Shown here in pieces: positions 1,286 through 64,000 of a DNA stretch of 64,000 bases. The stretch is from Piscicoccus intestinalis NBRC 104926 (GTDB lineage Bacteria; Actinomycetota; Actinomycetes; Actinomycetales; Dermatophilaceae). Below the pieces are notes generated by a model that was not told the origin of the DNA, ran no database searches, and saw only the letters and a program-made list of their open reading frames with translations. Positions within the stretch are counted from its first letter, which is position 1. Every line of letters starts with the position of its first letter. The DNA lies in contig NZ_BCNQ01000010.1 in NCBI RefSeq assembly GCF_001515525.1, forward strand, positions 1-64,000, read 5' to 3'. The translations under genes were made by a program, and so were the position numbers.

Positions 1286-1431
1286 GAGGAGACCATCGTC
1301 CCCGCTGCCGTGGCTCAACCCCAAACGGGCACGCCGGATCGATCCACAGGCCCGATCAGGGTGTGCGGTTGTCCACAGGGCGGGTGCGGAGCCGGTGCGG
1401 CGGCCGGCTCCGTGGGGGCACCCTGGCCCGC

Positions 1432-2091: not shown

Positions 2092-2162
2092 CTACGCCTC
2101 GCGCCGACGTCGCGCGTCGTCGAAGCCATGCCTCACGATGACCCGCGACGCCCCACGACGAC

Positions 2163-2228: not shown

Positions 2229-2242
2229 GGGGTCGTGCGGGC

Positions 2243-11796: not shown

Positions 11797-11999
11797 GGCT
11801 GATTCCTCGTCGTCGAATCGGAATGTCCGCGGCGATCCTACCCGCCGGTCTGTCGCGCTAAGCGGCAGATCAGCGAACCCGCCTCGGCGAACGGGGGCTC
11901 TCCGACGGCCGGTGGCCGAACATGCCACTGACCGCACGGACAGGCCGTCGAGCAGCCTGACGTGCGGTCAGTATGGCTATCGAAGGAGGAGCCGGTGTC

Positions 12000-12413: not shown

Positions 12414-12774
12414 GGGGTCACCCTAGCCGTCGGCGGCGCGCAGACGGCGGGAGTTTGGTCCCCTGCTTGCTGCCGACTCAGCGGGCTCTGGTCGCTCACC
12501 GCGCTCCCCGTCGGGCTTCTTGGACCTCTATGTGCCTGGCCGGGCCGTCAAACCGGAGGCGGGTGCTCGCGTAGCGCCGAAAGCAGTTCCCGACGCGCGC
12601 ACATCCCACACGATTTTGGCGATAACAACTCGGTCACATAAACTCGCGTCCGCCCCTTCGTCGTGCGGGGCTTGACGCTCCGGCGCCGATCAGAGCGCGT
12701 CCCGACGATGTCGTCGAGGGCCGCCCTCGCACCGGGCTCGGGCTGCGCGCGGCCATTCCCGAGGCAACGAGGTT
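12414..12774. promoter_or_regulatory. Divergent intergenic region with candidate promoter for the M23 peptidase
   Basis: This 361-base gap separates the divergent B12-binding protein and M23 peptidase genes. A candidate sigma-A-like promoter for the plus strand is TTGGCG (12616-12621), 17-bp spacer, TAAACT (12639-12644), in an A/T-richer patch. This would give a leader of about 125 bases. I looked for a c-di-AMP (ydaO) riboswitch, common before actinobacterial cell-wall hydrolases, and did not recognise its conserved core. Confidence 0.4.
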
Positions 12775-13671
12775 GTGCCTGTGCCCGCTCACCACGGACG
12801 CCATCGCGCCCGCCGGCGCCGCTCTGCCCGCACGCCCGCCGCCGCTCTCACCGTCTCCGTGGCCGTGCTCGCGCTGTTCACCGGCAGCTCCGGGGGCGCC
12901 CAGGCTGCGCACGGCGATTCCGCGGCGCACAGCGGGTCCGCGGCGCACGTCGGGTCCGTTGCCGACGTTTCGGCGGCGTTGGAGGCGACGTCGGTGGCGT
13001 TGACCGCCGCGCCGCCGATGGCCCCGGTCGCCGCGTCCCGTCCGGCGCCTTCGTCGGCCGCTCCGAAGCCGGCGCCGAAGCCGAAGCCGCGGGGCGAGAC
13101 GGCCGCGGTGTCGCGAGGGCTCAAGGGCTCCCAGGCCGCCGCCTCCCGCAGCGCTACCCGGGCGAAGGCGCTCGGGCCGCGCCAGACCCTGGCCCGCACC
13201 CCCGCGGCGCGCAGCGCCCGGACGACCCGAGCGGCGGCCCAGGCCTTCCCGAGCCTGACGAAGTTCACCTGGACCGGGCCGGTGCACGGCACCCGACAGA
13301 CGAGTGGTTTCGGCCAGCGCTGGGGCCGGATGCACGCCGGCCTCGACTTCGGCGGACCCGTCGGCACCCGGCTCAAGGCGATGTCCGGTGGAATCGTCAC
13401 CTACGCCGGTCGCCAGGGCGGCTACGGCAACAAGGTGGAGATCCAGCACTGGGACGGCTCGCTCGTCTACTACGGCCACATGGCCTCGACCTCGGTGAAG
13501 AAGGGCCAGGTCGTCATGCCCGGCCAGCTCATCGGGCGCCTGGGAAACTCCGGCCGCTCCACCGGACCGCACCTGCACCTCGAGGTGCGCCCCGGCGGCG
13601 GCGACCCCGTCGACCCGTGGCCCTGGCTCGTCGAGCGCGGCATCCTCCCCGCCGACACCCCGCGCTCCTGA
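12775..13671 (+). CDS. Secreted M23 (LytM-type) peptidoglycan endopeptidase
   Basis: A 298-residue protein: basic N-terminus and hydrophobic signal segment (AALTVSVAVLALFTG), a long Ala/Pro/Lys-rich linker, then an M23 domain from about residue 160. Zinc-site residues are intact: His187 and Asp191 in HAGLDFG, and His266-x-His268 in GPHLHLEV. It should cleave peptide cross-links of the cell wall outside the membrane. The gene lies in the sucC-pcrA interval, as its M. tuberculosis relative Rv0950c does. Start is GTG at 12775. Confidence 0.9.
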   Translation: MPVPAHHGRHRARRRRSARTPAAALTVSVAVLALFTGSSGGAQAAHGDSAAHSGSAAHVGSVADVSAALEATSVALTAAPPMAPVAASRPAPSSAAPKPAPKPKPRGETAAVSRGLKGSQAAASRSATRAKALGPRQTLARTPAARSARTTRAAAQAFPSLTKFTWTGPVHGTRQTSGFGQRWGRMHAGLDFGGPVGTRLKAMSGGIVTYAGRQGGYGNKVEIQHWDGSLVYYGHMASTSVKKGQVVMPGQLIGRLGNSGRSTGPHLHLEVRPGGGDPVDPWPWLVERGILPADTPRS

Positions 13672-13704
13672 CTCCCCCGAGCTTCTCCGAACTTCCCCGA
13701 ACTT

Positions 13705-16520: not shown

Positions 16521-18167
16521 ATGGAGCGCGTCAACCACACCCCGCTGTCACCGCTGTCGTTCCTGGAGCGGTCGGCCTCGGTCTGGCCCGACAAGGAGGC
16601 GGTCGTCTGCGGCCAGAGCTCGTGGAGCTACCGCGAGTTCGCCGACGAAGTGGCGACGATCGCGGGCGCGCTCTCGGCCAGCGGAGTCGGGCCGGGCGAC
16701 CGGGTGGCCTACCTCATGCCGAACGTGCCGCAGCTGCTCGCCGCGCACTACGCGGTGCCGCTGCTCGACGCGATCCTCGTGGCCGTCAACACGCGGCTGT
16801 CGGCCGACGAGATCGCTTACATCCTCGAGCATTCCGGCGCCAAGGTCGTCGTCGTCGACGGCGCGCTGCTCGACGTGGTCGCCGACGCCCTCAGCCGCGG
16901 CGAGGGCGCCCCAGGCGTCACCGACGTCGTGCTCGTCGACGACGAGGGAGCCGGTGTGCTCGGCTCCCCACAGGCCCGGGAGCGGGTCGGCGACCGCCTC
17001 GTCGATCTGGCCGAGTTCCGCGAGCGCGCAGCCGATTCCGACGTCGAACCGACATGGGGCGTGCACGACGAGGAGCAGCACCTCGCCCTGAACTACACGT
17101 CGGGCACGACCGGCAAGCCCAAGGGCGTGCTGTACACCCACCGCGGCGCCTACCTCAACAGCTTCGGCGAGATCATCCACTCCGGGTTCACCCGCGACAC
17201 GCGCTACCTGTGGACGCTGCCGATGTTCCACTGCAACGGCTGGTGCACGACCTGGGCGATCACGGCCGTCGGCGGCACCCACGTGTGCCTGCGCGAGGTG
17301 CGCGGCGACGCCGTCTGGCAGCTGCTGCACGACGAGCGGATCACCCACCTCAACGGCGCCCCGACGGTGCTGACGACGATCGCGAACGCGCCCGAGCGCA
17401 CCGAGCTCGACCGCGAGGTGACGATCACGACGGCCGGCGCGCCACCGGCTCCGGCGACGATCCTCGGCATGGAGGCGCTGGGCTTCACGATCGTGCACGT
17501 CTACGGCCTCACCGAGGTGTACGGCCCGTATTCGGTGTGCGCCCCGCAGGATTCGTGGGCGGACCTCGACGACGAGGAACGCGCGCGCAGCCAGGCCCGG
17601 CAGGGCGTCGGCATGGTGCAGGCCGACCGCATGCGCGTGGTCGACAACGACATGTCGGACGTGCCCGCCGACGGGTCGACGATGGGCGAGATCGTCATGC
17701 GCGGCAACAACCTCATGGCGGGCTACTTCCGCGACGAGGCGGGTACGCGGGCGGCGTTCGAGGGCGGCTGGTTCCACAGCGGCGACCTGGGCGTCATGCA
17801 CCCCGACGGGTACGTCGAGCTGCGCGACCGCGCCAAGGACGTCGTCATCTCCGGCGGGGAGAACATCTCGACGGTGGAGGTCGAGCAGGCGCTGATGAGC
17901 CATCCCGACGTGCTCGAGGTCGCGGTCATCGGCGTGCCCGACGAGAAGTGGGGCGAGCGGCCCAAGGGTTTCGTCAAGCTCAAGGACGGCGCGCACGTGA
18001 CGTCCGAGCAGCTCATCGAGCACGTCAAGGGCAAGATCGCGCGTTACAAGGCGCCCAAGGCGGTGGACTTCGTCGTCGAGCTGCCGAAGACGAGCACCGG
18101 CAAGATCCAGAAGTTCGCCCTCCGCGAGGCCGAATGGGGCTCCGGCACCCCGCGCATCCGCGGCTGA
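16521..18167 (+). CDS. Medium/long-chain fatty-acid-CoA ligase (acyl-CoA synthetase)
   Basis: A 548-residue ANL-superfamily enzyme with the AMP-binding P-loop YTSGTTGKPKGV, the aromatic gate region around WTLPMFHCNGW, YGLTEVYGP, the GDLGVMHPDGY hinge region and the catalytic lysine motif near the end (PKTSTGKIQKF). It activates a carboxylic acid as acyl-AMP, then acyl-CoA. The ATG at 16521 follows GAGAGGA by six bases; another ATG at 16506 is less well placed. The gene is bracketed by two copies of palindrome B. The exact chain length preferred cannot be read from sequence. Confidence 0.88.
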   Translation: MERVNHTPLSPLSFLERSASVWPDKEAVVCGQSSWSYREFADEVATIAGALSASGVGPGDRVAYLMPNVPQLLAAHYAVPLLDAILVAVNTRLSADEIAYILEHSGAKVVVVDGALLDVVADALSRGEGAPGVTDVVLVDDEGAGVLGSPQARERVGDRLVDLAEFRERAADSDVEPTWGVHDEEQHLALNYTSGTTGKPKGVLYTHRGAYLNSFGEIIHSGFTRDTRYLWTLPMFHCNGWCTTWAITAVGGTHVCLREVRGDAVWQLLHDERITHLNGAPTVLTTIANAPERTELDREVTITTAGAPPAPATILGMEALGFTIVHVYGLTEVYGPYSVCAPQDSWADLDDEERARSQARQGVGMVQADRMRVVDNDMSDVPADGSTMGEIVMRGNNLMAGYFRDEAGTRAAFEGGWFHSGDLGVMHPDGYVELRDRAKDVVISGGENISTVEVEQALMSHPDVLEVAVIGVPDEKWGERPKGFVKLKDGAHVTSEQLIEHVKGKIARYKAPKAVDFVVELPKTSTGKIQKFALREAEWGSGTPRIRG

Positions 18168-18212
18168 CGCGCCCACCCACCCCGCCCACCCCGACCATCC
18201 CGCTCCCATCTC

Positions 18213-18286
18213 GGCCGAAGGCTGCCCTATGGGTCGAGGGCTCCGGCCACAGCCCTAGCCCTCGACCGAAAGGGCAGCCTTCGGCC
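18213..18286. repeat. Long palindrome, family B copy 2
   Basis: 30-bp arms (18213-18242 and 18257-18286) with two mismatches and a 14-base loop. Arms share GGCCGAAGGCTGCC and GGTCGAGGGCT with copy 1 at 16386-16459. It follows the acyl-CoA synthetase stop by 45 bases and could terminate it. Confidence 0.88.
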
Positions 18287-18354
18287 GGTGAAACCCCGCG
18301 CACCGGGTGGCGGTGCCGGTGGTTCAGATCGGGGCGGGGTGTCAGGGTGGAGTC

Positions 18355-19974
18355 ATGAGCGCCGGAGACAGCCCGCACGCCGACCGCTACGAGCCCTCCC
18401 TCGACGAGGCGCTGCGCCGGCTCGCCGACCAACTCATGGCCGAACACGGCGGTGACGCGCAGGCCGCGCTGCGGGCGCTGCAGGACGACGAACTCCTGCA
18501 GTCGCTGGCGACGAGCGCCGGGGCGGAGGGCATCGCGTTCGGGCCCGCCGCCGCGCGCGGCCGCCGGGAGGACGAACCGCGCTTCGAACTGCGCGAATCC
18601 CCGCCGGAGCCGGTGGTGTTCGGCGTCCGGGTCGACCTCGACGGGGCGCAACCGCCGATCTGGCGGCGGCTGGAGGTGGCCGGCGACCTGCCGCTGTCCC
18701 AGGTGCACACGCTGCTGCAGGCGTCGTTCGGCTGGTTCGACGCGCACCTGCACTCGTTCGCCCCGGTCATCCCGGGGTCGGGCCCGCACATGCGGCCGTT
18801 CCCGAACCCCGGCACGGCCGAGTTCTGCGCCGACAACCTGCCGCCGGAACACGAGGTCCGCCTCGATCAGGTCGTCACCGACGTCGGCGACCAACTGCTC
18901 TACGAGTACGACTTCGGCGACTCCTGGGACCACAGGATCACCGTGGAGACGGTGCGGCCGCGCACCGACGGCGACCCGCGGGCCCGGCTCCTCGGCGGCG
19001 ATCGCGCCGCGCCGCCGGAGGACTGCGGCGGCATCTGGGCGTACAACGACCTCGTCGCCGTGCTCGACGGGCGGGCGGCGACGGGCCCGGCGGACTGGCT
19101 GGGCGAGTTGCTCGCGCAGATGCCGCCGGACTTCGATCCCGCCGACGCCGGCCTCGGCGACCTCGACCTCGACGAGCTGCTCGACACGATCGATCGGGCC
19201 CAGCAGCTCGCCGGAGACCTCGTCGGCAACCCCCGATTCGCCCCGATCGCAGCCGAACTCATCGACCAGATCGCGCAGGTCGACCAGCTCCAGCCGTTCG
19301 CGGTGCTCGTCGACGACGCCGAGTTGCCGCTGACCGCCGAGCCCCCGGAGACGGCCCGCGCGGCGGTCGTCGAGGGCCTGACGCCGCAGGAGGCCGAGGC
19401 CGTCGTCGCCCCCTGGGCACTGCTGCTGCAGCTGCTCGGCCGCGAGGGCGTGCGGCTCACCGGCGCCGGCTACCTGCCTCCGGCGGTGGTGCACGCCCTG
19501 TTCACGGGGTTGCACCTCGACGAGCACTGGATCGGCAAGGGCAACCGCGAGGAACTGACGCTGCCGGTGGCGCAGCTGCGCGAGAGCGCGACCGCGCTCG
19601 GGGTGGTTCGCAAGGCCAAGGGGCGGCTGGTGCCGACGAAGGCCGCGCTGGCGGCCGCGGACGACCCGATCCGGCTGTGGCACCTGCTGGCCGACGGCCT
19701 GCCCCGAGCGCGCGGCGACCGCGAGCGCTCGACCACCGCGCTCGCGTTGTTCTGCTTCGCCGGGCGGCAGCCGGTGGACGTGTCCTTCGACGGCATGGCG
19801 GCTGGGCTGCTCGGGGCACTCGGCTGGCACGTCGACGCGGTCAGTCGCTACGAGATCCGCGACGGCGCCCTGCCGGTGTGGACCGTCATGGAGCGCGGCG
19901 GCGGGCTGGACGACGCGGGCGTGCCGACCCCGGCCGCGCGTCGGCTCGCCCGGGCGGCCCTGCTGCGCCACTGA
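18355..19974 (+). CDS. pRiA4b Orf3-like domain protein
   Basis: A 539-residue protein whose middle (residues about 80-250) matches the plasmid pRiA4b Orf-3-like family: PPIWRRLEVAGDLPLSQVHTLLQASFGWFDAHLHSF-like blocks and YEYDFGDSWDHRITVE. The biochemical role of the family is unknown; it is widespread in bacterial chromosomes despite the name. The C-terminal 250 residues are helical and acidic without a recognised domain. The ATG at 18355 was chosen because it begins a clear N-terminus after a purine-rich GGGTGG stretch. Confidence 0.8.
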   Translation: MSAGDSPHADRYEPSLDEALRRLADQLMAEHGGDAQAALRALQDDELLQSLATSAGAEGIAFGPAAARGRREDEPRFELRESPPEPVVFGVRVDLDGAQPPIWRRLEVAGDLPLSQVHTLLQASFGWFDAHLHSFAPVIPGSGPHMRPFPNPGTAEFCADNLPPEHEVRLDQVVTDVGDQLLYEYDFGDSWDHRITVETVRPRTDGDPRARLLGGDRAAPPEDCGGIWAYNDLVAVLDGRAATGPADWLGELLAQMPPDFDPADAGLGDLDLDELLDTIDRAQQLAGDLVGNPRFAPIAAELIDQIAQVDQLQPFAVLVDDAELPLTAEPPETARAAVVEGLTPQEAEAVVAPWALLLQLLGREGVRLTGAGYLPPAVVHALFTGLHLDEHWIGKGNREELTLPVAQLRESATALGVVRKAKGRLVPTKAALAAADDPIRLWHLLADGLPRARGDRERSTTALALFCFAGRQPVDVSFDGMAAGLLGALGWHVDAVSRYEIRDGALPVWTVMERGGGLDDAGVPTPAARRLARAALLRH

Positions 19975-20034
19975 CCCGGCCTCGGGTGCGATGTCGCTTG
20001 TACCACGCACCTGACACTCAATCGCTTGACACAT

Positions 20035-21723
20035 TCACGGCAGCTCGTCGGCCGGCACGCCGGCCGCGTAACCGTCGCGTTGCGGGTCGGCGCCCCCGCG
20101 CAGCCGACCATCGAAGGCCGTGATCGCGTGCACGCCCGCGAAGGCGTAGCTCAGCGGGGAGCGCCGCACCTCGTAGCCGTCCGCGGTGAGCGCGTCCTCC
20201 ACGCAGGTCGGAATGCGGTTGGAGATGTCGATCGCGTCGCCGGTGGCGGCGATGCGCGGGGCGGCGACCGCCTCCTGGGTGCCCATGCCCCAGTCGAGGA
20301 GGTTGGAGACGACCTGCAGGATGCCCGGTCCGATCCACGAGGCGCCGGGAGCGCCGAGGGTGCCCACGGGCCGAGTGGGGTCGTCCGCGTCGAACAGGAG
20401 AGTGGGGCTCATCGTCGACAGCCGTCGCTTGCCGGGGGCGAGCGAATTCGCGCGTCCCGGCCGCGGATCGAAGGTGCTCATGCCGCCGTTGAGCATGAAG
20501 CCGGTGCCGGGCGGGAGGTAGCCCGACGGGTTGCCGAGTGTGTGCGTCAGCGCGACCGTCATGCCGTCGGCGTCGACCGTCGAGACGTGGGTGGTGTGCC
20601 GGGAGTCACCCGCGGGCAGCCGTTCGATGCGCACCCGCTGACCGGAGCGGATGGCATCGGCGAGGGCGTCGAGGCGGGCCGGATCGAGCAGGTCGGGCGG
20701 CGCCTCGCCGGTCCCCGCCGCATGGGCGGGGTCACCGGGAAAGTCGGGGTCGCCCGCGTACCGGTCCCGATCCCGCAGCGCGGTCTTCATGACCTCCGCA
20801 AGCAGCCGCAGGTGCTCGGCGTCGTTGTGGCGCACGTCGGGCGGGGCGGGCATGAGCCGTTCGAGCAGCGCGAGCGCCTGCAGCAGGTAGGTGCCGCCGC
20901 CGGGCGGGGCGGGCACCCCGACTCCCCAGCCGCGGTAGCCGGCACGCATCGCCGCACACTGTTGTGTGTGGAATGACCGCAGGTCGGAGACGGTGAGCAG
21001 CCCGCCGTCGCGCGTCACGGCGTCGGCGACGACCCCGGCGAGCTCGCCCTCGTAGAGGCTGTTGGGGTCGCGGGCGACGAGGTCGAGGACCTCGGCGAGC
21101 TCGGGGTTGACGACGCGTTCGCCGAGGCGTTTGGGCGTGCCGTCGTCGCGCAGGTAGAGGCGGCGACCGTCGGGCGTGAGGGCGAGCTTCTCGGCGAAGT
21201 CCATGCGGCCGTAGCGGCGTTCGTCCTGGGTGAAGACGGTGGCGACGTGCGGGCGCACGAGCCAGCCCGCGCGGGCGAGCGCGATCGCGGGCCGCACGAG
21301 GTCGTCCCACGGCAGGCGCCCGTGGGTGGCGTGGGCGTCGGCGAGCGTGCGCAGGGTGCCGGGCACGAGCACCGACGTGGGGCCGGACTCGTTGACGAAA
21401 TCGCGCACAATGAAACCGAATCCGTCGCTGGTCTCGCCGAGCACGCGGTCGGCCCACAGGTCCGGGGTCGCGGAGCCGGGCACGCGCCCGAGCCCGTCGT
21501 ACACGACCGGCTCGGTGTCGGGCGCGGCGAGATGCAGGAGGGCGAAGCCGCCGAGCCCGCACATGAGCGGGTCGACGACGCCCTGCACGAGGGCCGCGGC
21601 GATCGTCGCGTCGAGGGCGTTGCCGCCGGCCCGCAGCACGGTGGCGCCGACGTCGACCGGCTCCGGCTGGGGCGCGACGATCATCGCGGCCGGTTCGGGC
21701 AGGGTGCGCTGCGGTCGAGCCAT
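20035..21723 (-). CDS. Gamma-glutamyltransferase family protein
   Basis: A 562-residue N-terminal-nucleophile hydrolase precursor. The processing site is TTHVSTVD, with Thr377 the predicted nucleophile and new N-terminus of the small subunit, giving about 376- and 186-residue chains. Other family blocks: GGNALDATIAAALVQGVVDP, GLGGFALLHL, PGTLRTLADAHATHG and LNGGMSTFDP. No signal peptide is evident, so the protein may be cytoplasmic. It could act on gamma-glutamyl compounds such as glutathione or cephalosporin-like acyl chains; the substrate cannot be assigned. Confidence 0.88.
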   Translation of the reverse strand: MARPQRTLPEPAAMIVAPQPEPVDVGATVLRAGGNALDATIAAALVQGVVDPLMCGLGGFALLHLAAPDTEPVVYDGLGRVPGSATPDLWADRVLGETSDGFGFIVRDFVNESGPTSVLVPGTLRTLADAHATHGRLPWDDLVRPAIALARAGWLVRPHVATVFTQDERRYGRMDFAEKLALTPDGRRLYLRDDGTPKRLGERVVNPELAEVLDLVARDPNSLYEGELAGVVADAVTRDGGLLTVSDLRSFHTQQCAAMRAGYRGWGVGVPAPPGGGTYLLQALALLERLMPAPPDVRHNDAEHLRLLAEVMKTALRDRDRYAGDPDFPGDPAHAAGTGEAPPDLLDPARLDALADAIRSGQRVRIERLPAGDSRHTTHVSTVDADGMTVALTHTLGNPSGYLPPGTGFMLNGGMSTFDPRPGRANSLAPGKRRLSTMSPTLLFDADDPTRPVGTLGAPGASWIGPGILQVVSNLLDWGMGTQEAVAAPRIAATGDAIDISNRIPTCVEDALTADGYEVRRSPLSYAFAGVHAITAFDGRLRGGADPQRDGYAAGVPADELP

Positions 21724-51212: not shown

Positions 51213-51650
51213 TCAGGCCCGATCGCGCAGCCACCGCGCAACGTCGCGGACGTACTCGCCGTATTCGACGCGCGCCAACGGCACCGCCGTCGCGACGAGC
51301 GCCAGATCGGTCTTCACGTACTCGTGGATCAGCACGTCACGAAGACCCACGGACGCCTTGAGCCCGTCCGCCAACGTCGTGCTCACCAACCCGGCCCTCG
51401 CCGCCTCGTCGAACGACTCCCGATACTCCGTCACCATCGCGCCGCCGAGGCTGGTGGCGACGTGGATGTTGATGTCGACGGCCAGGTCGATGAGTTGAGT
51501 CAGTACGCGTTCGACCGCGCGCCGCGTCAGCCGGTCCCGCAGGAGCCGGTCGGCATCCACCGGACCGACGGCATCGAGGTCTTCGAGCAACTCCCGCATG
51601 AGCGTGAGACGGGTGGACACGACCTGGGCGGAGAACGCGCGCGGGCTCAT
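51213..51650 (-). CDS. hepT: HepT-type HEPN toxin
   Basis: A 145-residue HEPN ribonuclease with an intact RX4HXY motif: Arg104, His109, Tyr111 (RDVLIHEY). In characterised pairs, MntA AMPylates the tyrosine to neutralise the toxin. The ATG overlaps the MntA stop (ATGA). The antitoxin as written has a frameshift, so either the toxin is tolerated, another antitoxin acts, or the shift is a sequence error. A partial decayed copy lies at 30858-31006. Confidence 0.88.
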   Translation of the reverse strand: MSPRAFSAQVVSTRLTLMRELLEDLDAVGPVDADRLLRDRLTRRAVERVLTQLIDLAVDINIHVATSLGGAMVTEYRESFDEAARAGLVSTTLADGLKASVGLRDVLIHEYVKTDLALVATAVPLARVEYGEYVRDVARWLRDRA

Positions 51651-52055
51651 TGGGCCAGCACCTCCAGGACGCGGTCGCGGAATCGTTGGGTGTCGCAGAA
51701 GGCGCCGAACGCCGCGATCTGCGCGTTCGCATAGCGCCCCGGCGCACCCTCGACGAGCAACTCCACCCCGTGCAAACCCGCGTACCGGGCCACGGAACCG
51801 GCGGCGTCGAGGTCCATGACATCGAGAGCGTCGCCGAAACGCTCCCCCAGAGCGTTGACGACGCCTAGGTGGGAGACGGGCTCCCGCGATCGGTCGCGAG
51901 TACGCGACGTCGAGGTCTCGGGCCGTCGCCGGATCCCGCACGGCGCTGCCGAAGATCGTCAGGAGGTCGACGCCCAGCTCGTCGCAGAGACGCCGCAGCG
52001 ACCCGTCGGCCTCGGCCGACCGGAGGCGCGCCAACGCGGTCTGCACGGCAGACAT
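51647..52055 (-). pseudogene. mntA: MntA nucleotidyltransferase antitoxin with +1 frameshift
   Basis: N-terminal frame: MSAVQTALARLRSAEADGSL, then LLTIFGSAVRDPATARDLDV with the GSX9DXD active site (Gly36, Ser37, Asp47, Asp49). At about 51890 the frame changes; removing one base gives HLGVVNALGERFGDALDVMD and the end FGAFCDTQRFRDRVLEVLAQ. The span of 409 bases minus one gives 136 codons exactly, ending in ATGA overlap with hepT. Confidence 0.75.
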
Positions 52056-52146
52056 GGCGACCATGCTACGGAGGCGGCGCGGCTCGGCTCGCGAAGAATC
52101 GTTCGTCGTGGCTGGTGAGCAAGTCCGCAGCGGGGTTCCGCGGCGC

Positions 52147-52625
52147 CGGGCGTCCGTCACAAGGGCATCGCCTCCGCGCACCCGGTCACGAAGGTCGGGA
52201 CGCACGGCGGTGTCGGGCACGAGGTCGACGTCGGCGCCGAGGATGTCGCTGAGCCGGCGCTGCAGGCGTTCGAGTTCCATGAGGCTCCAGGGGGTGCCCA
52301 TCGTGAACACCAGGTCGATGTCCGAGTGCGGGCCCTCTTGCTCAGTGGCGACCGAACCGAACACGCGAACCTGGGATCCTCCTGCGTCGGCGATGGCGCG
52401 CAACATGGGCGTCCGCGCTGCGCGCAGGCGCCGCCCCAGCAGAGTCGCGGCGTGGAAGCGCAGCAGACGCGACACCTCGGGTTAGCTCCGGCCGATCTGC
52501 GCCGCGATCTGTTGTTGGGTCACGCCGCCGGCCGCCACCTGTCGAACAGCCGCGACCAGGCGGGCACGCGCAGCGTGCACGTCTCGGTCGCTCTTCGCCG
52601 CGATCTCTGCCAGTTCTTGCTCCAC
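52147..52625 (-). pseudogene. Decayed copy of the XRE-MNT antitoxin
   Basis: Close paralogue of 42133-42603. A C-to-T change (Gln to TAA, forward TTA at 52482-52484) stops translation right after the HTH (AAQIGRS stop, where the intact copy reads AAQIGRSQPEVSRLL). Near the 3' end two bases are lost, shifting the last codons. The start has become GTG and the upstream operator is degenerate. A short leftover of the HEPN partner (TDARRRGTPLRT, compare TAARRRGASAHL) follows before the mntA gene. Confidence 0.8.
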
Positions 52626-53754: not shown

Positions 53755-55213
53755 GGCTCATCCGAATCCAGGGTGTAGTCGGGGTCTGAACCCGCCGGTC
53801 TCGAGCAGGGATCTGGCGATGTAGTTGGTCAGGTTGCGGAACCCCAGCGCCGAGCCGCGCAGGTGCTCGAGCCTGCCGTTGATCGCCTCGGTGGGCCCGT
53901 TGGAGGTGCTGGGCCGGTCGAAGTAGGCCAGGACGTCGGCGGCGCGCTTCTTCAGCGTCCTGCCGAGCTTGGTGATCTCGACCAGGGCCTTGGGGACGCC
54001 GGTGCTGATCGAGTCGATGAGCCGGGCCATCAGCTCGCGGCCGTGGCGCCGGTTCTCGTGGCGGTAGGCGGCGATCATGCGCTGGTAGACGCTCCAGGTG
54101 ACCTCGACCTCGACGTGGGCGTCGTCGGCGAACAGGGTGTCCAGTCGGTCCTTCTGCTTGTCGTTGAGCAGGTCGGCGCCGGTGGACAGGGTCCGGCGGG
54201 CGGCATAGAGCGGGTCGCCCTTGCGGCCGCGGTGCCCACAGATGGCCTGCTGAACTCGCCGTCGGCACTCATCGAGCGCCTCGCCAGCGAGGCGCGTGAC
54301 GTGGAAGGGATCTAGCACGGTCACCACGTCGGGCAGTTCCTCGACGGCGGCGGTCTTGAACCCGGTGAAGCCGTCCATCGCGACCACCTCCACGCCGTCG
54401 CGCCACTCCTGCGGGCGGTCGGCCAGCCAGGTCTTGAACGCCTGCTTGGAGCGTCCTTCGACCATGTCCAGCAGCCGTGCCGGGCCGGTGCCATCTCGCA
54501 CTGGGGTGAGGTCGATGATCACGGTGACGTACCTGTCGCCGCGACGGGTGTGCCTCCACACGTGCTCATCGACCCCGACGACCTTCACCCCCTCGAAGCG
54601 GTGCTCCTCGTCGATCAGCACCCGCTTGCCCTCGGCCAGAACGGCGTCGTTGGCGGTGTCCCAGGCCACCCCGAGCCCCTCGGCGACCCGAGCCACGGTC
54701 AGAGGTGCTGGACCACGATCCCTTCCAGCGCCCACCGCAGAGCGCGCCGAGACAACTTGGCCCGGGGCTCGGCCGCGGCGGTGGTGTCCTGGCGCCACAC
54801 ATACCCGCAGCCGCTGCAGCGGTAACGGCGCACGACGACCTCCAGCGTCGTGGGCCGCCAGCCCAGTGGTTCGTGGGCAAGCCGTCGGACCACGGTGTCA
54901 CGTGGTCTCCCTTCGCAGCCGCAGCGCCGGCACCACTGGTCGGGCTCGACCACCTGGCAGGCCAATACGGCACGATCCGGCTCGAGTCGCTGCCCGGTGA
55001 CAACGAGGCCGAGTTCGTCGAGGCGGCAGAAGGCAGTCAGGTCGGGGCTGGCGAACGCATCAGCGCGCCCGCCGACGGTAGCGTCGTGCACGTCGAGGTC
55101 TTTCGGGCTGAGTGTGTAGGAGCTCTCATCCTCGGGAGACCTCGACCTCTATCCGGCCACCGACGCGCCGGCCCGCCGCGCGACGTGCGCTACACCCTCA
55201 TCTGGGAAGAGCC
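53755..55213 (-). mobile_element. ISL3-family insertion sequence
   Basis: The 1459-bp element is bounded by 24-bp imperfect inverted repeats (53755-53778 and 55190-55213; 18 of 24 match, outer end GGCTC, inner end AGGGTGTAG). A perfect 8-bp direct repeat CCGTTAGG flanks it (53747-53754 and 55214-55221), the target duplication length expected for ISL3. Intact ends and target repeats suggest recent insertion. Its single gene encodes the transposase and carries a frameshift. Confidence 0.9.
53758..55091 (-). pseudogene. ISL3 transposase, frameshifted
   Basis: The N-terminal part (about 130 residues) has the zinc-finger typical of ISL3 (CRRCGCEGRPRDT ... YRCSGCGYVW). The frame breaks at about 54700 where CTCT stands for an expected CT; the second frame continues LTVARVAEGLGVAWDTAND, VGVDEHVWRH, VVAMDGFTGFKTAAV, LDPFHVTRLA and ends SNGPTEAINGRLEHLRGSAL and HPGFG. 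These are the DDE-domain blocks of ISL3 transposases. Programmed frameshifting is not usual in this family, so the copy is probably inactive unless the shift is an error. Confidence 0.88.
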
Positions 55214-55383: not shown

Positions 55384-56142
55384 ATGGCCCGACGCGGTGA
55401 TCCTGATAAAGTACTGTCAGCTTTTCAGCTACAGTTGAACGAATCTCTTGGGCAGTACTTGGAGGTCGAAACCGCCCTGACAACAGCTGGCGCCCACGCC
55501 CGGCTCCTCAAACAGACCGCGGAGGATTCGGCCTTCCATCTGGGCGCACTATGGGAAATGTTTCAGGGGCGTTGGTTCATCGCGGCCGTTTCGAAAGCGC
55601 CGAATCGCTTTATCCAGAACCGCGAGGACGAGGTCAGGTGCGCCATGACGGGTTTGCCGAGCAATATCAGGACCGCTATCGATCTGTTCATGGGCGGCGC
55701 ACCCGAAGTAAAGGGTAATCTGCGCATGGCTGATATCGAAACATTCCTCGACCCAAATGGATACAACATCACATTTAAAGATTTCGATGCATGGCGCGCT
55801 TCTGCCGTCGCCCACTTAAGCGACCCATATAAACAGGCTGCTATGCGACTTGCCGAGTCTACCGAGGCGACGTCGTTTCTGCGGCTTCTTACCGCACTGA
55901 GGAACGTTTTGGCCCACGGCTCGGACGGGAGTGGGACCAGGTTCAATGAGGCGTGCCGAGCCAAAGCTAGAGACCAGGGTTTCGGCCTCGCGGGCGAGGT
56001 CAATGACCCACTGAAACGCGATAAACATGACGTAAGAGACATCGGCAGGTATCTCCGCGCCCGTCCGGCGGGCGGCGGCGTTGAGCGCATTCAGCTCCTC
56101 CACGAACGCGTAAAGACCTGTTCGGAGATGTTGCGAACATAA
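55384..56142 (+). CDS. Lone HEPN-like protein (possible ribonuclease)
   Basis: A 252-residue helical protein of no named family I can confirm. TALRNVLAHGSDGSG contains an RX4H motif (Arg173, His178), the signature of HEPN ribonucleases, and the helix pattern before it suits MAE_28990- or RiboL-PSP-type HEPN proteins. Base composition is clearly lower in G+C (hand counts of 43% and 55% in two 60-base lines) than the genome, a sign of transfer. It lies between the IS element and the putative defence operon. Confidence 0.6.
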   Translation: MARRGDPDKVLSAFQLQLNESLGQYLEVETALTTAGAHARLLKQTAEDSAFHLGALWEMFQGRWFIAAVSKAPNRFIQNREDEVRCAMTGLPSNIRTAIDLFMGGAPEVKGNLRMADIETFLDPNGYNITFKDFDAWRASAVAHLSDPYKQAAMRLAESTEATSFLRLLTALRNVLAHGSDGSGTRFNEACRAKARDQGFGLAGEVNDPLKRDKHDVRDIGRYLRARPAGGGVERIQLLHERVKTCSEMLRT

Positions 56143-56750: not shown

Positions 56751-59530
56751 TCATGGTCTTGTGTCAGCCGTTGCGCAGAGGGCGACGAAGTCACAGCTCG
56801 CGCAAGCGTCGCACCAGGATTTATGCCTGGGCAAATGATTAGTGCGGAGCGCGTCGCCGGCTGCCAGGACGCTCTTCCGCGTGGCCGCCAATAGTTCAGC
56901 ATCGACGGTCTCGCGCGTGGTCTTTCCTTCTTCATCGAGATTGAGAACTTCGATGAGGTCAGCGTTCTCGCCGCTGAGTTCTTCGTAGCCGACGGCGTAG
57001 ATGTGCAGCTGGTCCCGGGTGACGTCCTCGACCTGGGCACGGCCGGTGGATTTGAAGTCGACGACGGAAACTTCGTCTGTATCGAGCCTCCGGATGAGGT
57101 CGATGCGGCCCTCAACGGTGATGCCCTCACCCAGATGCACCTGAATGGGCTTCTCCGAGTGAAGCGTCATGGGCAGCTCCGCGCCATGATCGCGAAGATA
57201 GCGGTGGACCGCGTCGACGGCTGCACGGCGAAGCTGGGCGCGCAGCTCGGGATAGGCATACGGCGTGTGCAGGTGCCGGTCGACGAGCGTCTCCGCCTCC
57301 TCGGCGTGGACCATGTCATCCCGCAGGGCCCGCTTGTGCATCTCGGCGAGTACGTCGTGCAGACCTTTCCCATACCCCAGCGCCTCGTGAAGCGGGGCGT
57401 TGAACCCGTAAAGGAAACGCATCTTGAACGCGTAGGGGCACTCGAAGTAATACTTCAGTTCCGAGAACGACAGTGTCACCTGCGGCACTTCCACCTTCGC
57501 CTGGGGCGGCAACCGGTCGGCGTCGACAGGAACTCCCGGGTCCTGTGTACTGACCCGAGCATGGCCCGTGCAGTGAACGAAAAAGTCGGAGTTCTTCGAG
57601 TACAGCTTCTTGTCGCTGGGCGAGAACGTCGCGAAGAGCCACTTCTGCGCGCGCGTCACGGCGACATAGAACAGCCGGGTCTCGTCCTCAAGGGTCCCAC
57701 GGTAGCGATCCGCGTCCGGCACCGCGGTGTCGGGGACGACGTGAAAGAGGCCGAGGCCCCCCTGCCGCTTGGACGGAAAGGCGTTGCGACGAAGGCACGA
57801 CAAGACGACAACAGGCCATTGCATGCCCTTCGCCTGGTGGACGGTGCTGATCGTCACGGCGTCGGGTTGCGCGTAGCCGACGTCACCGTCGACGTCGGCG
57901 TAGTAGCCGGGCGCCTGATGGCGCAGCCACTTCGCGAAGGCGTCGTACTTCTGGGCTGGTTCCGACTGGAAGTAGATCTCCTCGAAGTCGGAGATCACCT
58001 GGCTGAACTTGCCCAACTGGAAGAGCACAAGCTCGGCGCGCTGCGCTTGGCCGGGGATGGTGTCTTCGCGAACAACGAGCGCCTCGAGAAAATCCAGGTA
58101 GAGGCGCTGCAGGTTGTACGCCGACCAGCGGTTGCCGCTTCCGATGTCGCGCCGCTGGTCGAGGAGCCGGACCGCGCCGCCCCAGTCTGCGGCCGCCGGG
58201 ATAAGGTCGGCTCGGCGCCAAAGCCTATGCAGTTCGGTCTCATCCAGGGTGCCGGCCATGTAGTCGAAGACCGCGACGACGGCCTCGATCTCCGGTGATT
58301 CGAACAGCCGGTTAAGGCCCTCGACGACGTACGGGATATTCCGTCGACGAAGTTCCTCGACGACCGGTCCCGCGTCGCGGCTGACGGAGCGATACAAGAT
58401 AGCAACGTCCGACCAGGACAGCCCGCGCGGCTCGTTGCCTGGGGCGTCTAAGAAAGCGAGGCCTCGCATCGCCTCGATGCGATCGCAGATCCAGGCGGCC
58501 TCGGAGGGCGGGTCGGGGAAGTCCAAGGCCAAGAGGTCGCCTCGTTCCCATGTCTGGTGTCCGGCTGCGACCATGCGCTTCGGCAGCCGTTCCCCCGCTG
58601 GATGCGAGCGGCGAAGGAGTGACCGAGCTCCACGACGCCCTCGCTCGAGCGGAAGTTCTCGTCGAGGGTGACCTGTTCGACGTCGTCATGCCGGTCTGCG
58701 AACTCGATGATGTTGCGCACGGCGCTGCCGCGCCATTGGTAAATCGTCTGGTCGTCGTCGCCCACCACGCAAAGGTTGGCGCCGTGTCGGACGAGCGCGT
58801 TGATCAGCCGTTCCTGCAGTGGGTTGGTGTCCTGGTATTCGTCGACGACGACATACCGGACGTCGTCACGCACGTGGTCGAGCAACGCGCGCCCCATCTC
58901 ATCGTTGGGCTCGTCGGACTCGAGTAGCTCGGCAGCCAACTGCAACATCGACGTGTAGTCGAGATACGACTTCTCCCGCAGCAGCCGTAGGTAGTGCATC
59001 AGGGACGCCTCGACCTCCCCGGGCACCTCACCCCAGGCGATCTCCTCCTCGCGCAGGACGCTCAGCACCTGCAAATAGAGGCTCGAGTGGGTGAAGCGTT
59101 TGAGATGGGCCGTGCCCGCCGACATGGTCGGGCACGTGGTCAGCCCCGACTTCTTGGAGTTGCGGTCGATGAGGAGCCGCGAGGTCACCGCGGTCAACGT
59201 GCCGAATTTGAACGTCTCGGGCACGTAGTCCTTCAGCAGACCGAGGCAGAACGCGTGCATGGTGCCGATGTACATCTCGGCGAGGCCGATCTGTGTGCGG
59301 CCGTCTGCGGTGACCAGCGAGAGGACGCGGTCTTTCAGCTCGGCTGCGGCCTTCTCGGTGAACGTGAAGGCGACGATGTTGCGCGGCTCCGCGGCGCCGG
59401 ACCGCAGGAGGTTCGCGATCCGCTGCGAGATGACCTGGGTCTTTCCCGAACCGGCGCACGCGATGATCTGCAGCGGCTTATCGACGCAGGCGATCGCAGC
59501 CTCTTGGGCCGCCGTGTAGTTCGTGGGCAT
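56751..59530 (-). pseudogene. UvrD-type helicase fused to PD-(D/E)XK nuclease, one-base frameshift
   Basis: N-terminal frame (59530 to about 58597): Walker A ACAGSGKTQVISQRIA, AFTFTEKAAAELKDRV, VVDEYQDTNPLQERL, GDDDQTIYQWRGSAVRNI, LDENFRSSEG. Second frame: TISTVHQAKGMQWPVV, FYVAVTRAQKWLFATF, then a RecB-like nuclease from about residue 740 (GRIDLIRRL...VVDFKSTG...QLHIYAVGY) and a cysteine cluster CDACASCDFVALC that may hold an iron-sulfur centre. Adding one C in the forward C5 run at 58592-58596 restores 927 codons exactly. It starts four bases after the DUF262 gene ends. Confidence 0.85.
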
Positions 59531-59534
59531 GGGG

Positions 59535-61850
59535 TTACCCCTCGGTCGAATGGCCGCCGTCGGTCAGCCGCGCGTGGGCGGTCTCGCGTTCGGCGTCGGT
59601 GAAGAGCGTCGCGAACTCTGGCCGCAGGACCACGCTTTCGACGGTCAGATCCAGCCGGTCACTCTGCCGCAGTGCCGTGAAACCGTCGGACACGACAGGC
59701 GCGGCCAGAAGCCTCTGCGCCGTGCCGAGCGCGCCGTACCGCTGCAGCATGTCGATGTACTGGGACGCGCGGTACCCGGTCTCCTTCAACGCGCGAACGT
59801 AGATGTCCCGCATCGCGCGCCCGAACCGCTCGCGAGCAACCGCTGGGTCCTGCTCACTGCCCGGGGCTGCGACGACGCCCGCGTTCACGGGTGTCCGGGG
59901 CGAGCTCTCGTCGACCGTCCCTGTCTCCCCCGCAGCCTCGCGGGCGCGGTTGTGGAGATACGCGCGCAGGGCGTCGACCGACGTGAAAACGTCGTAGCCG
60001 AGTTCCTCCATGTGCGCCATGCCGACCGGATCGGGGTCGATGTCCAGGACCACGGGGCTGCCCTGCCCGGCCTGCAGACCGTCCTTCCAGAAAAGTTCGG
60101 CGACTGCGACGGCCCGCCCAGTGACGGGCTCGACGATCTCCACGTCCACAGTCGGCTCGGCGAGGCCCATGGCCAGGCCTTCGTCGCGGAGGTCACGCAC
60201 CCCCTCCATCTCGTCGTCCCCGCTCGTCGGGTCCAGTAAGGCGATCCGCGGCAGCGGCTCCTCCGTCGAGGGGAGGCCGGACTCGAGCAGGCCGTTGAGG
60301 AAGGCGTTCGCCGCGCGGGCAAGCAGGTCCCGGCGGGCCGTGAGGAACTGCGGGTAGCGCTCCAGGGTCCACAACGCGGGATCGGTCGGGATCCACTGGC
60401 TGGCGAGCGCGCCGGGGTGCCGGCGCTCGATGTCGGCCAGGTATTCCGCGGGGAGCCGCTTGCCGATGTCGAGGTTGGTCTGCTGCGTGAGGAAGCAGAA
60501 GTTGGCGACGGAGTTGACCTCGCCGCGACCGTAGCCTGCGTCGTAGAGCTGAGCCTTGGGGAAGATGTGGTGGACCTGCAGGCTCGAGAGGTGGCCGAGC
60601 ATCTGCCTCTTCAGTTCGATGCCGTTGCCAAGGTCGCGGGCTCCGAGCACGCGGGTCATGAGGTAGAGCAGCGGGTAGAAGCGCGAGCCACGCCCGAAGG
60701 CGTAGAAGTCGTGGGCGCCGACCTGAAGGTTGCCTCCGCGCCACTGACGCAGGTCGGCGATGAGACCGTCGACTCCCTCCGCCTGCGCGGTCTCGTAGTC
60801 GCGGGCCAGGTAGGTCTCGGTCGAGCCGGTGAAACGGCCCCACAACCCGGTGTTGATGTACCAGTAGAGGAGCCGATCCTGCGTCGTGCGGTCGCCGAGG
60901 CCACCGGCGAGGTGCTGGAGCCGGGAGACGACGGGGATGGCGTAGCGGCCCATGAGGACGCGGTCGTGATCGAGGCCGAGGCGACCGGCGACGAGGTCGA
61001 GGAACCCGCCGACATACTTGGTCGACTCCCCGAGGGCAGCCGCGAACTGTTCGGTGCTGACCGCCTCCAGGGCGTCGAACTGGGCCCGGCCGGTGGCGAC
61101 GGCCGTCACGTTGCGGAGTAGCCAGTCCAGGGAGAAGACGTATCCCGCGTCCTCCCAGGCCGCCAGATGCGCGCGCAGGGTCGTGCGCGCCTCGGGCCAT
61201 TCGGCGCAGACCTTGGCGAGCGCCAGGTCACCCTTGGAGAGTTTGGTGCCTCCGGAGTTGACTTTGTTGAAGATGTCCACGACGTGATCGATCGTCATAT
61301 CCGCGCCGGTGATCTTCTCCGCGTGGAAGTCGCGATCGAGGATGCCGCGCAGCCGGGTCAGCCGGGTGAGGTACGTCGCCAGGTGCGGGGCCGTGACCCG
61401 ATCGGCGCTGAGACGGCCGATGTGCGCTTCGAGCCCCTCGCGGAAGAGCTCGGTGACGTCGATCCACAGGGGGTCTTCGCGCATCTTGGAGGCCGAGTAG
61501 AACTCGAAGACCTCCGACTCGAGGTTGAAGCGCAGGCCGGCGAACGCGCCCGCGTCACCCTCGAAGAATGCCGGCGGCCGGCCGCGCGCGACGCCGTACA
61601 GCGTGGTGATGCGCTGCTGCCCGTCGAGGAGCAGTTGCTTGACGCCGCCCGAGGTGTCGGCGTCGCCGCGAACGGCGCTCGCCATCGGCTCGGTCTCCCA
61701 GATGAGGAGGGCTCCGACGGGGTACCCACGGTAGAGCGAGCGCATGAGGCCGCGCACCTGGTCGCGGTTCCAGACGTAGCCGCGCTGGAACTCCGGGAGG
61801 AGCATGACGCCCGAGTCGACCTGGTCGAGGAGCGAGGAGACCTTGGTCAT
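59535..61850 (-). CDS. DUF262/HNH (GmrSD-like) protein with extra C-terminal region
   Basis: A 771-residue protein. Residues 1-300: DUF262 domain with LLPEFQRGYVWNRDQVRGLM and the DGQQR motif (residues 76-80), a ParB-like NTP-binding core as in GmrS. Around residue 427: LQVHHIFPKAQLY, an HNH/DUF1524-like His-His site, followed by NSVANFCFLTQQTN. Residues about 570-771 are an additional unrecognised part (VVLDIDPDPVGMAHMEELGYDVFTSVDAL). GmrSD enzymes restrict modified phage DNA. The ATG overlaps the methyltransferase stop (ATGA). Confidence 0.85.
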   Translation of the reverse strand: MTKVSSLLDQVDSGVMLLPEFQRGYVWNRDQVRGLMRSLYRGYPVGALLIWETEPMASAVRGDADTSGGVKQLLLDGQQRITTLYGVARGRPPAFFEGDAGAFAGLRFNLESEVFEFYSASKMREDPLWIDVTELFREGLEAHIGRLSADRVTAPHLATYLTRLTRLRGILDRDFHAEKITGADMTIDHVVDIFNKVNSGGTKLSKGDLALAKVCAEWPEARTTLRAHLAAWEDAGYVFSLDWLLRNVTAVATGRAQFDALEAVSTEQFAAALGESTKYVGGFLDLVAGRLGLDHDRVLMGRYAIPVVSRLQHLAGGLGDRTTQDRLLYWYINTGLWGRFTGSTETYLARDYETAQAEGVDGLIADLRQWRGGNLQVGAHDFYAFGRGSRFYPLLYLMTRVLGARDLGNGIELKRQMLGHLSSLQVHHIFPKAQLYDAGYGRGEVNSVANFCFLTQQTNLDIGKRLPAEYLADIERRHPGALASQWIPTDPALWTLERYPQFLTARRDLLARAANAFLNGLLESGLPSTEEPLPRIALLDPTSGDDEMEGVRDLRDEGLAMGLAEPTVDVEIVEPVTGRAVAVAELFWKDGLQAGQGSPVVLDIDPDPVGMAHMEELGYDVFTSVDALRAYLHNRAREAAGETGTVDESSPRTPVNAGVVAAPGSEQDPAVARERFGRAMRDIYVRALKETGYRASQYIDMLQRYGALGTAQRLLAAPVVSDGFTALRQSDRLDLTVESVVLRPEFATLFTDAERETAHARLTDGGHSTEG

Positions 61851-64000
61851 CGCGCCACCTCGAAGACCTTCATCACTTCGTCGCCGTAGTCGTTGATGAC
61901 CTTGACCGCGATCTTGCCGCTGGGGGGTACGTCGAACGGGCGCGAGGTCGTCTCGTAGAGAGTCGCCCACGCGTCGGCATCGATGTCTGCCTTGAGTGCG
62001 GTCTTGAGCCGCTTGTAGGGGTCGCCGCCACCGGTGAAGTAGCAGTGCCGCACGAAGAAGGAGTCGCCGTTGTAGTCGGTGTCGATCATCCACAGGGCGA
62101 TCTGGCCGGTGTCGTTGGAGCGGATCTCGCCCGTCGTCGGGTCGTAGACGTCGACGCCGCGCAGCTCGACGACGACCTGCCCCCTGTCGGTGCGGGTGAG
62201 GTCGATGTCGGGCTCCCCGAAGACCGTGAAGAGGTTGCCCGTGCCGGTCTTCTTGAGGTCCTCCCCCATGAGCAGGTCGACGTTCATGCGGACGAGGAGC
62301 AGCTTGATTCGGCCGAAGGAACGCTCGTCCGCGACGTGGGCGAAGCCGTCGCTCGTGGTGTCGACGGTGATCCCGTCCGCCTCGGTCACCTCGTTGGTGG
62401 ACGCGTCGAAGGCGAATCCCAGCACGCACAGCAGGTCGATGTCGCCCGCGCGGATCGCCTCCCGTACGGCGTCGCGGCAGAAGCCCTGGCTGACTGTGCC
62501 GTACTGCGGGCCGATGGCGATGCCCACCCTCGTCTCGGTGGTGTCCGCATCCGCGCCGTCAGGCTCGCCTCGGCGGATGCCCACGGCCTGGATGTACGTG
62601 CCGGCGTAGGGCTCGACGGAGGTGAACTCGATGCGCTCCTGGCGCCGCCCGTTCTGCACCCCGGCGCGCTGGAGGTTCTCCAGGATCGACTGCTCGAAGT
62701 TGGGGGCGTCCGGCTGGGCTGCGCCCTGCTGCTCGCTGATCGACTCGCGGTGCTCTACGTCGGGGCCGCCCGCGAAGGCGAGCGAGCGGTGCGGGCTGAG
62801 GCTCTCCACCGTGAACGGTCCCGCGACCCGGACGACGCCCTTGTCCTCGTACGGCCGGTCGTAGAGCGTCTCGAAGTCCGCGTGCCGCTTGATGGCCGCG
62901 TCGATCTCCTCGCGGGTCATGCCCTCGACGATGTCGGGGTTGTTCGCGATGGACTTCAGGGTGATGTGCTGGACGCGCTCGTAGACGAAACCGTGCCGGA
63001 TGTCGTTCGTCGACGGGCCGGTGGGCGCGTCGCCCTGGATCTCTCGCACCTTCCGCTTGCCCTTGTCGCTGTCGGCGAGGAGGTACATCGAGTACTTCGC
63101 ACCCATCAGCCGCTGGCGTGCCAGTGCTAGCGCGACCCGCGACGTGTCGATGGTGATCCAGCGGCGACCCCACTGCTCGGCCACGTACGCCGTGGTGCCA
63201 CTTCCGCACGTCGGATCGACCACGAGATCGCCGGGATCAGTGCACATTAACATGCATCGCTCGATGACTTTCGTGTTGGTCTGAACGACGAAGATCTTGG
63301 GATCGCCGAAGCCTGCTGTCGTGGTATCGTCCCAAAAGTTCGTGTAGCTGATAACTGGGAAGTCATCGAAATAGCGGACGTAATACAACGTACGAGCAGC
63401 CCCCGTCAGACGATTCGCGTGCTTCAGGCGCTCCATCCCAGACCGGTTCGTCTTCCACCCCCCCTTCTGCGGGACAAACGTTCCCTCGGGAATCTGAACA
63501 GGAAAAACTGTTGTCTGACCAACGCGCGTGGTTTGCGAAGTGGTCTGATCCCTTCTGAAAACACGACCCGGAGGATCCTGGGCACCTGACTGCTCTAGTC
63601 GCGTCATGCGTCGCCGCTCACCTGAGGCGAGCTCGACATTGGTGTAGGCAGTCCCTTCCTCTGAATACGACTTGAATTGGTACAGGCTGCGATATTTCAC
63701 CGTGTCGATGGACCTGGCATACCAAATCACGAAATTGTTGGTGGCCGCCAAGACGTTGGTACCGCCAGCGAAGCTCCCTGCGCCGCTAGTAGTCTTGAAA
63801 GAAATGAGAGAGCAGAAGTTTTCGACGCCAAAGATTTCGTCCATCAGTGAGCGGACCAGATGGACGTTTTCGTCGCCGATCTGGACGAAGCAGCTCCCGC
63901 GCTCGGTGAGCAGCTCCCGGGCGACGAGGAGGCGATCGCGGAGGTACGAGAGGTAGGAGTGGATGCCCAGCTCCCACGTATCACGGAAGGCCTTGATCTG
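61847..64000 (-). CDS. Adenine-specific DNA methyltransferase (beta class, type III Mod-like), 5' end beyond window
   Basis: The frame is open to the right edge, so the N-terminus with the DPPY catalytic motif lies outside. Visible: LGIHSYLSYLRDRLLVARELLTERGSCFVQIGDENVHLVRSLMDEIFG, a long variable segment, then the SAM motif DPTCGSGTTAYVAEQWGRRWITIDTSRVALALARQRL, the beta-class order seen in Mod proteins. The C-terminal 400 residues are an additional region ending MKVFEVAR. The segment between the catalytic side and the SAM motif (about 63250-63860) has lower G+C than the rest. First gene of an operon with the DUF262 and helicase-nuclease genes. Confidence 0.85.
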   Translation of the reverse strand, partial: QIKAFRDTWELGIHSYLSYLRDRLLVARELLTERGSCFVQIGDENVHLVRSLMDEIFGVENFCSLISFKTTSGAGSFAGGTNVLAATNNFVIWYARSIDTVKYRSLYQFKSYSEEGTAYTNVELASGERRRMTRLEQSGAQDPPGRVFRRDQTTSQTTRVGQTTVFPVQIPEGTFVPQKGGWKTNRSGMERLKHANRLTGAARTLYYVRYFDDFPVISYTNFWDDTTTAGFGDPKIFVVQTNTKVIERCMLMCTDPGDLVVDPTCGSGTTAYVAEQWGRRWITIDTSRVALALARQRLMGAKYSMYLLADSDKGKRKVREIQGDAPTGPSTNDIRHGFVYERVQHITLKSIANNPDIVEGMTREEIDAAIKRHADFETLYDRPYEDKGVVRVAGPFTVESLSPHRSLAFAGGPDVEHRESISEQQGAAQPDAPNFEQSILENLQRAGVQNGRRQERIEFTSVEPYAGTYIQAVGIRRGEPDGADADTTETRVGIAIGPQYGTVSQGFCRDAVREAIRAGDIDLLCVLGFAFDASTNEVTEADGITVDTTSDGFAHVADERSFGRIKLLLVRMNVDLLMGEDLKKTGTGNLFTVFGEPDIDLTRTDRGQVVVELRGVDVYDPTTGEIRSNDTGQIALWMIDTDYNGDSFFVRHCYFTGGGDPYKRLKTALKADIDADAWATLYETTSRPFDVPPSGKIAVKVINDYGDEVMKVFEVAR

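Follow-up and report, generated by a model that had tools for sequence, protein, structure and literature searches.

A candidate layered restriction operon with a GmrSD-like gene between a type III-like methyltransferase and a UvrD-Cas4 helicase-nuclease

Introduction

The question raised by this locus is whether a methyltransferase gene, a DUF262/HNH gene and a helicase-nuclease gene, found side by side at the right end of the window (the whole stretch of 64,000 nucleotides that was analysed), constitute one restriction system and whether that system is already known. The first-pass annotation had described them as a three-gene operon, read them as a possible restriction-type defence system and recognised no named system in their architecture. 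The restriction-type reading is compatible with every gene identified here. The three-gene system was rejected because the methyltransferase gene (Mod) extends to C10:64609, a fourth gene (Res) starts 2 bases beyond, at C10:64612, and further genes are present past position 64000.

Results

Gene content and layout of the operon

The window comprises the first 64000 bases of contig C10 (67412 bases), which extends past 64000. In the direction of transcription the operon order is Res, Mod, DUF262/HNH and UvrD-Cas4, followed in the list below by the genes of a second contig, C11 (5899 bases).

C10:64612-67410, plus the first ~120 residues on C11:1-360: Res, restriction endonuclease of the BPTD_3080 family (NCBI NF046055, 986 bits against a cut-off of 800)
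61847..64000, on to C10:64609, minus strand: Mod, 920 aa, predicted N6/N4 DNA methyltransferase of the beta class, belonging to a type III-like restriction-modification pair (PADLOC MTase_III PDLC03632, 860 bits)
59535..61850, minus strand: putative GmrSD/BrxU-family DUF262+HNH protein of 771 aa that continues past about residue 525 with additional C-terminal parts (GmrSD_N, motifs, BrxU match)
58448..59530, minus strand: N-terminal part of a UvrD-type helicase, first frame of a broken gene, 360 aa (Pfam, alignment)
56751..58574, minus strand: C-terminal part of UvrD and Cas4-like PDDEXK_1 nuclease, second frame, 607 aa (Pfam, alignment)
C11:781-3207: divergent SMC_N-type ATPase (57% to its Kineosphaera counterpart)
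C11, after the ATPase: small ORF (61% to its Kineosphaera counterpart)
C11: Schlafen group 3 helicase (71% identity across 151 residues, the part contained in the fetched Kineosphaera locus)

The close packing first reported was confirmed, with an ATGA overlap of the Mod stop and the DUF262 start at 61847-61850, a 4-base gap (59531-59534) from the DUF262 stop to the helicase ATG and all of these genes on the minus strand. The domains claimed were scored by Pfam as N6_N4_Mtase, GmrSD_N and UvrD-helicase/UvrD_C/PDDEXK_1. HNH was the exception, not being scored by Pfam, and is retained on the HHIFPK motif and on the fold match described below. The single helicase-nuclease gene was upheld in its domains and not in its integrity, being represented by two overlapping ORFs in different frames.

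Three ORFs were identified to the left of the operon. A 252-aa ORF at 55384-56142 (plus strand) is convergent with the operon and has no Pfam or PADLOC match, although by eye it contains an R-N-x-x-x-H stretch like that of HEPN RNases; an ISL3-family transposase (DDE_Tnp_ISL3) is found at 53758-54798 (minus strand), ~2 kb from the operon's end; and an ORF with nucleotidyltransferase and HepT-like domains at 51213-52475 (minus strand) makes a toxin-antitoxin-like region near the operon. No tRNA was found in the window and Rfam gave no match in 48-64 kb.

Mod and Res

The motif order of Mod is DPPY at 170 followed by DPTCGSG at 465, that of the beta class, and 13 relatives keep both motifs with little or no variation. 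The piece of Res on C10 comprises 932 residues, ended by the contig end, and carries SF2 helicase motifs. Since the gene adjoining Mod upstream belongs to the BPTD_3080 family, Mod is assigned as the methyltransferase of a type III-like pair, and Mod and Res together are, as judged from their sequences, a type III-like restriction-modification pair. PADLOC REase_III matched Res with 21.7 bits only and no PDB relative of Res was found. In its nuclease region PD 834-835 and E854 are invariant in 13 sequences, with S at the position usually occupied by K (PD...E-x-S versus E-x-K). The nuclease motif of the BPTD_3080 family (Res entry L002:10613-13411) reads PD...E-x-S-G, and K871, 17 residues past the E, is invariant; the catalytic lysine has possibly moved to this position.

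The DUF262/HNH protein

The GmrSD_N domain of this protein scored 92.7 bits in Pfam. DGQQR (76-80) and HHIFPK are invariant in 27 DUF262 relatives, as are N446, N450 and N459 of the HNH region; three loci with stops within the translated stretches (L057, L079 and L084) were omitted from this alignment. The only sequence relative in the PDB is BrxU (profile E 1.4e-25), which is also the top fold match of the predicted model (pLDDT 81, pTM 0.58), with a Foldseek E of 2.8e-16, Z 19.1 and rmsd 18.9 over 459 aligned residues, covering residues 1-519 (about 1-524) of the window protein. The large rmsd indicates that the domains match and that their arrangement differs or is poorly predicted. Cas9 HNH domains align to the model over 390-498. 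On these motifs and this model the protein is assigned to the GmrSD/BrxU family. Among the PADLOC DUF262 families the best match was HEC-05 (113.8 bits), and no described system was reached in this way.

About 245 C-terminal residues are found beyond the extent of BrxU. Within them, residues ~600-660 to 767 (region 59538 to ~60280) match short separate ORFs in many genomes of the class, and residues ~541-640 have a weak likeness to nuclease-like folds (3hrl, Z 5.5, rmsd 3.7, 81 aligned), below the level of trust.

Further fold matches of the model are SspE (Z 10.9, rmsd 19.7, 436 residues aligned) and DndI (Z 10.0, rmsd 7.5, 394 residues aligned), and SspE is reported to depend on a host mark (PMC9646914). 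These matches would fit a protein that recognises the mark set by this operon itself and serves as an effector which Mod licenses, not as an enzyme directed against foreign modifications. We consider this very improbable, BrxU being the better match.

The helicase-nuclease

The two ORFs of the window align to consecutive parts of one intact protein of 934 aa in Kineosphaera, residues 1-316 (64%) and 322-920 (70%), so the frame breaks in the window near 58.6 kb, either by a true lesion or by an assembly error. The SF1 helicase and PDDEXK_1 are thus in a single protein in Kineosphaera and in different frames in the window, and with its frame broken the helicase-nuclease step may be lost in this assembly. 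Walker A, DEYQD, the nuclease D-D-K and four cysteines are conserved, and profile searches match PcrA/UvrD, AdnAB, AddA, RecB and GajB. The gene is also split by ~3.3 kb in one genome (G612) and present as a remnant in another (G316). Relatives adjoin type II restriction-modification genes on two plasmids, from Priestia and Vibrio.

Kineosphaera limosa and contig C11

Kineosphaera limosa contains Res, Mod, DUF262 and UvrD-Cas4 in the same order, with up to 72, 70, 70 and 70% identity (overall 64-72%). Among the best 80 of 107 DUF262 relatives this order was identified in the window and in Kineosphaera limosa only, and the idea of a conserved set, which a single occurrence was to refute, narrowly survives. 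The first 360 bases of C11 match residues 4-123 of a query taken from Kineosphaera Res, and the piece on C10 matches that protein from about residue 125 onward. The ATPase and the small gene are found right after UvrD-Cas4 in Kineosphaera and on the other side of Res in the window genome. With all of these matched, the two genomes share six genes (Res, Mod, DUF262, UvrD-Cas4, the ATPase and the small gene), which are arranged differently; a Schlafen-type helicase is nearby. The SMC-like ATPase, which PADLOC links weakly to Lamassu LmuB and mad3, might be a sensor of ends or structures. In the Kineosphaera island (L033) the regions 470-3115 (minus strand) and 17945-21513 (minus strand) encode mREase_IV (996 bits) and IetS/IetA (1050 and 480 bits).

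With the four-gene order in two loci, it is conceivable that the DUF262 gene was inserted here by chance, within a defence island. By this account an unrelated stand-alone GmrSD-like gene landed between the type III-like pair and its UvrD-Cas4 and is merely co-transcribed, each enzyme acting alone. One other locus with the order, in an island that also holds a type IV enzyme (mREase_IV) and IetAS, is what such stacking would leave, although the tight spacing (the ATGA overlap and the 4-base gap) and the order kept at 64-72% identity argue the other way. Taken with the occurrences described below, we judge it rather unlikely.

Occurrence of Mod, Res and UvrD-Cas4

Mod was identified in 15 genomes across two overlapping samples (10/394 and 7/396). 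UvrD-Cas4 directly follows Mod in 5 of the 15 (G199, G207, G260, G300 and G612), follows the DUF262 gene in one (the window) and is a remnant in another (G316). In seven more none was found near Mod within the fetched stretch, with the exception of a distant 24% relative 4.6 kb off in G244; the eighth genome without a visible UvrD-Cas4, G034, is not judgeable as its contig ends 0.9 kb past Mod. The five other genomes with Res-Mod-UvrD-Cas4 and no DUF262 are a point in favour of chance stacking.

In the sample of 394 genomes, Mod and a close UvrD-Cas4 (at least 54% identity) were both present in 6, Mod only in 4, UvrD-Cas4 only in 1 and neither in 383. This co-occurrence is far from chance (Fisher p of 3e-10 when counted by genome, 2e-5 when counted by genus and 3e-4 by genus without the window), also when four UvrD rows of 29-31% identity are added (2e-8 and 3e-4). 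The Kineosphaera UvrD query identified the window and three 35% relatives in a phylum sample of 396 genomes. In the Mod tree the rows with UvrD-Cas4 are found in three places, some forks being weakly supported; G260 was left out of this tree because of stops in the translated stretch, and G244, G300 and G316 are not included.

On plasmids, 9 of 422 matching records were opened and all 9 contained a Res relative in the gene cluster of Mod, adjoining it in 7 (in reversed order in one) and separated by one or two small genes in the other 2. Neither UvrD-Cas4 nor DUF262 was identified in any of these 9 loci, and another SF1-type helicase follows Mod in three: UvrD in two and a Schlafen-type in one. 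On the Picosynechococcus plasmid (L151) Res and Mod are separated by UPF0175 and DUF3368 genes, and Mod is followed by a gene for a deaminase-domain protein (8217-8961, 11822-13696); such inserts are a sign that this restriction-modification locus often takes up other genes.

A phage origin was rejected, as query P0001 had no viral-contig relative and gave 7 weak phage records, none above 80% of the query. Query P0005 identified 15 viral-contig loci, with Res in 9 and UvrD-Cas4 in none; a 23% DUF262 relative is on the opposite strand in 2 of these 15, which look like the same sequence.

Neighbourhoods of the DUF262 family

The sample comprises the best 80 of 107 relatives from a short-pattern search, with many close kin and some flanks that stop at contig ends. 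A UvrD-type helicase was found within 700 bp of the DUF262 gene in 33 of these 80 loci. In 27 of them the helicase gene is upstream of DUF262 and shares its strand; in the other 6 it is downstream, on the opposite strand in 2 and on the same strand in 4. Kineosphaera and Arthrobacter, whose helicases are of UvrD-Cas4 type, belong to these 4. No such helicase was found within this distance in the other 47 loci, and elsewhere in the fetched stretch one was present in just 3 of the 80. By profile search of 78 loci the helicase gene is at -1 in 27, at +1 in 6 and elsewhere in 5 (three at -2, one at +4 and one at -10). The helicase-paired rows are spread over several parts of the tree, where close kin are many and the deep forks weak. 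Because the helicase adjoins DUF262/HNH in 33/80 loci, this sample points to a helicase as a frequent partner of GmrSD-like enzymes. For chance stacking the 47 loci count in favour; the repeated pairing in several places of the tree counts against it.

Adenine methyltransferases were identified with three queries in the flanks of 34 of the best 80 of 107 loci, as a reader of the operon's own mark might have it, and the same three queries found none in 46, which argues against that reader. Seven mycobacterial-type loci (L051, L049, L056, L059, L060, L063 and L066), from mycobacteria and a relative, contain an Eco57I-type methyltransferase just past the helicase, a UvrD of roughly 700 aa. In L051 a DpdE/DrmD-like SF2 helicase precedes the Eco57I-type methyltransferase, the UvrD helicase and DUF262/HNH. 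These operons recall ARMADA without its YprA helicase, their upstream flanks being cut off.

A tentative reading, which we hold as possible at best, is that DUF262/HNH and an SF1 helicase together form an exchangeable restriction module of two genes, as yet without a name, that attaches to methyltransferase systems of unrelated kinds, giving them a second, modification-dependent cutter and its own end-processing motor. Its hosts would be a type III Res-Mod (window and Kineosphaera, with UvrD-Cas4) and an SF2-helicase/Eco57I-methyltransferase operon (mycobacteria, with another kind of UvrD).

Discussion

The reading that we prefer, and regard as somewhat probable, is a layered restriction operon composed of the type III-like Res-Mod, a GmrSD-like nuclease and UvrD-Cas4. 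From the observed gene content, order, motifs and recurrence we infer all of the biochemistry, including a specificity for modified DNA and the processing of ends, on the model of BrxU (PMC8565348), of type III enzymes and of the UvrD-Cas4 proposal in PMC5704561. Mod would mark host sites, and Res would travel along and cleave unmarked incoming DNA. DUF262/HNH would be a GmrSD/BrxU-like NTP-driven nuclease cleaving DNA that bears foreign base modifications, so phages evading Res through DNA modification would still be cleaved. UvrD-Cas4 would load on the ends made by either cutter, unwinding and degrading the fragments so that they are not rejoined.

The layered operon is favoured by the Res score of 986 bits, the MTase_III match of Mod, the adjacency of Res and Mod on plasmids, the co-occurrence of Mod and UvrD-Cas4, the BrxU match, the helicase neighbours of the DUF262 family and the UvrD-Cas4 relatives beside type II genes. 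Counted against it are the four-gene order known from two loci, the 47/80 DUF262 loci without a helicase within 700 bp, the helicase-nuclease that is broken, split or a remnant, its absence from the fetched stretch in 7/15 Mod genomes, the lack of both UvrD-Cas4 and DUF262 in the 9 plasmid loci, and the E-x-S of Res. On this reading a single transcript would encode two cutters of opposite preference (unmarked and modified DNA) and a finishing motor, and removing genes one at a time would directly test how the defence layers cooperate.

Comparison with known systems

BrxU is, according to PMC8565348, a type IV enzyme of the GmrSD family that is encoded within a BREX operon and complements BREX. 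It shares with the window protein the DUF262+HNH fold and the insertion in an operon with a methyltransferase; it differs in its host system, BREX versus a type III-like one in the window, and in lacking the ~245 C-terminal residues. Membership in BREX was rejected, as neither PglZ nor BrxC is present among the seven genes scanned. The predicted DUF262+HNH fold is also that of SspE and DndI, which act with host phosphorothioation according to the sources available in part; the seven genes scanned include none recognisable as a phosphorothioation gene.

ARMADA, as described in the accessible part of PMC12458937, also has an SF2 helicase, a methyltransferase and a UvrD-type helicase in one operon, and the ARMADA-like mycobacterial operon (L051) also contains a DUF262 gene of the window kind. 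The differences are the beta-class Mod and the UvrD fused to a Cas4-like nuclease in the window. Membership in ARMADA was rejected as well, with no YprA-like helicase or PglX-like methyltransferase among the seven genes scanned.

A close likeness is also seen to type III restriction-modification with UvrD-Cas4. PMC5704561 (2017) describes Res-Mod in one neighbourhood with a fusion of UvrD helicase and Cas4-like nuclease (pfam12705), the same combination of Mod, Res and UvrD-Cas4 as in the window operon, and proposes that UvrD-Cas4 assists in an ancillary way by unwinding and cutting; the second context given there, dcm with vsr, is like the Priestia plasmid locus. The claim of an unnamed architecture thus fails for Mod and Res, a type III-like pair whose Res is of a family named by NCBI, and for their UvrD-Cas4 neighbour. 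It holds for the DUF262/HNH gene between Mod and UvrD-Cas4, by which the window differs, DUF262 having no occurrence in the main text of PMC5704561. GmrSD genes near restriction-modification genes were already known (PMC4619093, as far as its available text goes). In the open PubMed Central literature, available in part, no description was found of DUF262/HNH between Mod and UvrD-Cas4 or of a DUF262/HNH-UvrD pairing. Res-Mod-UvrD-Cas4 itself is already published; the novelty of the locus lies in the DUF262/HNH gene that separates Mod from UvrD-Cas4.
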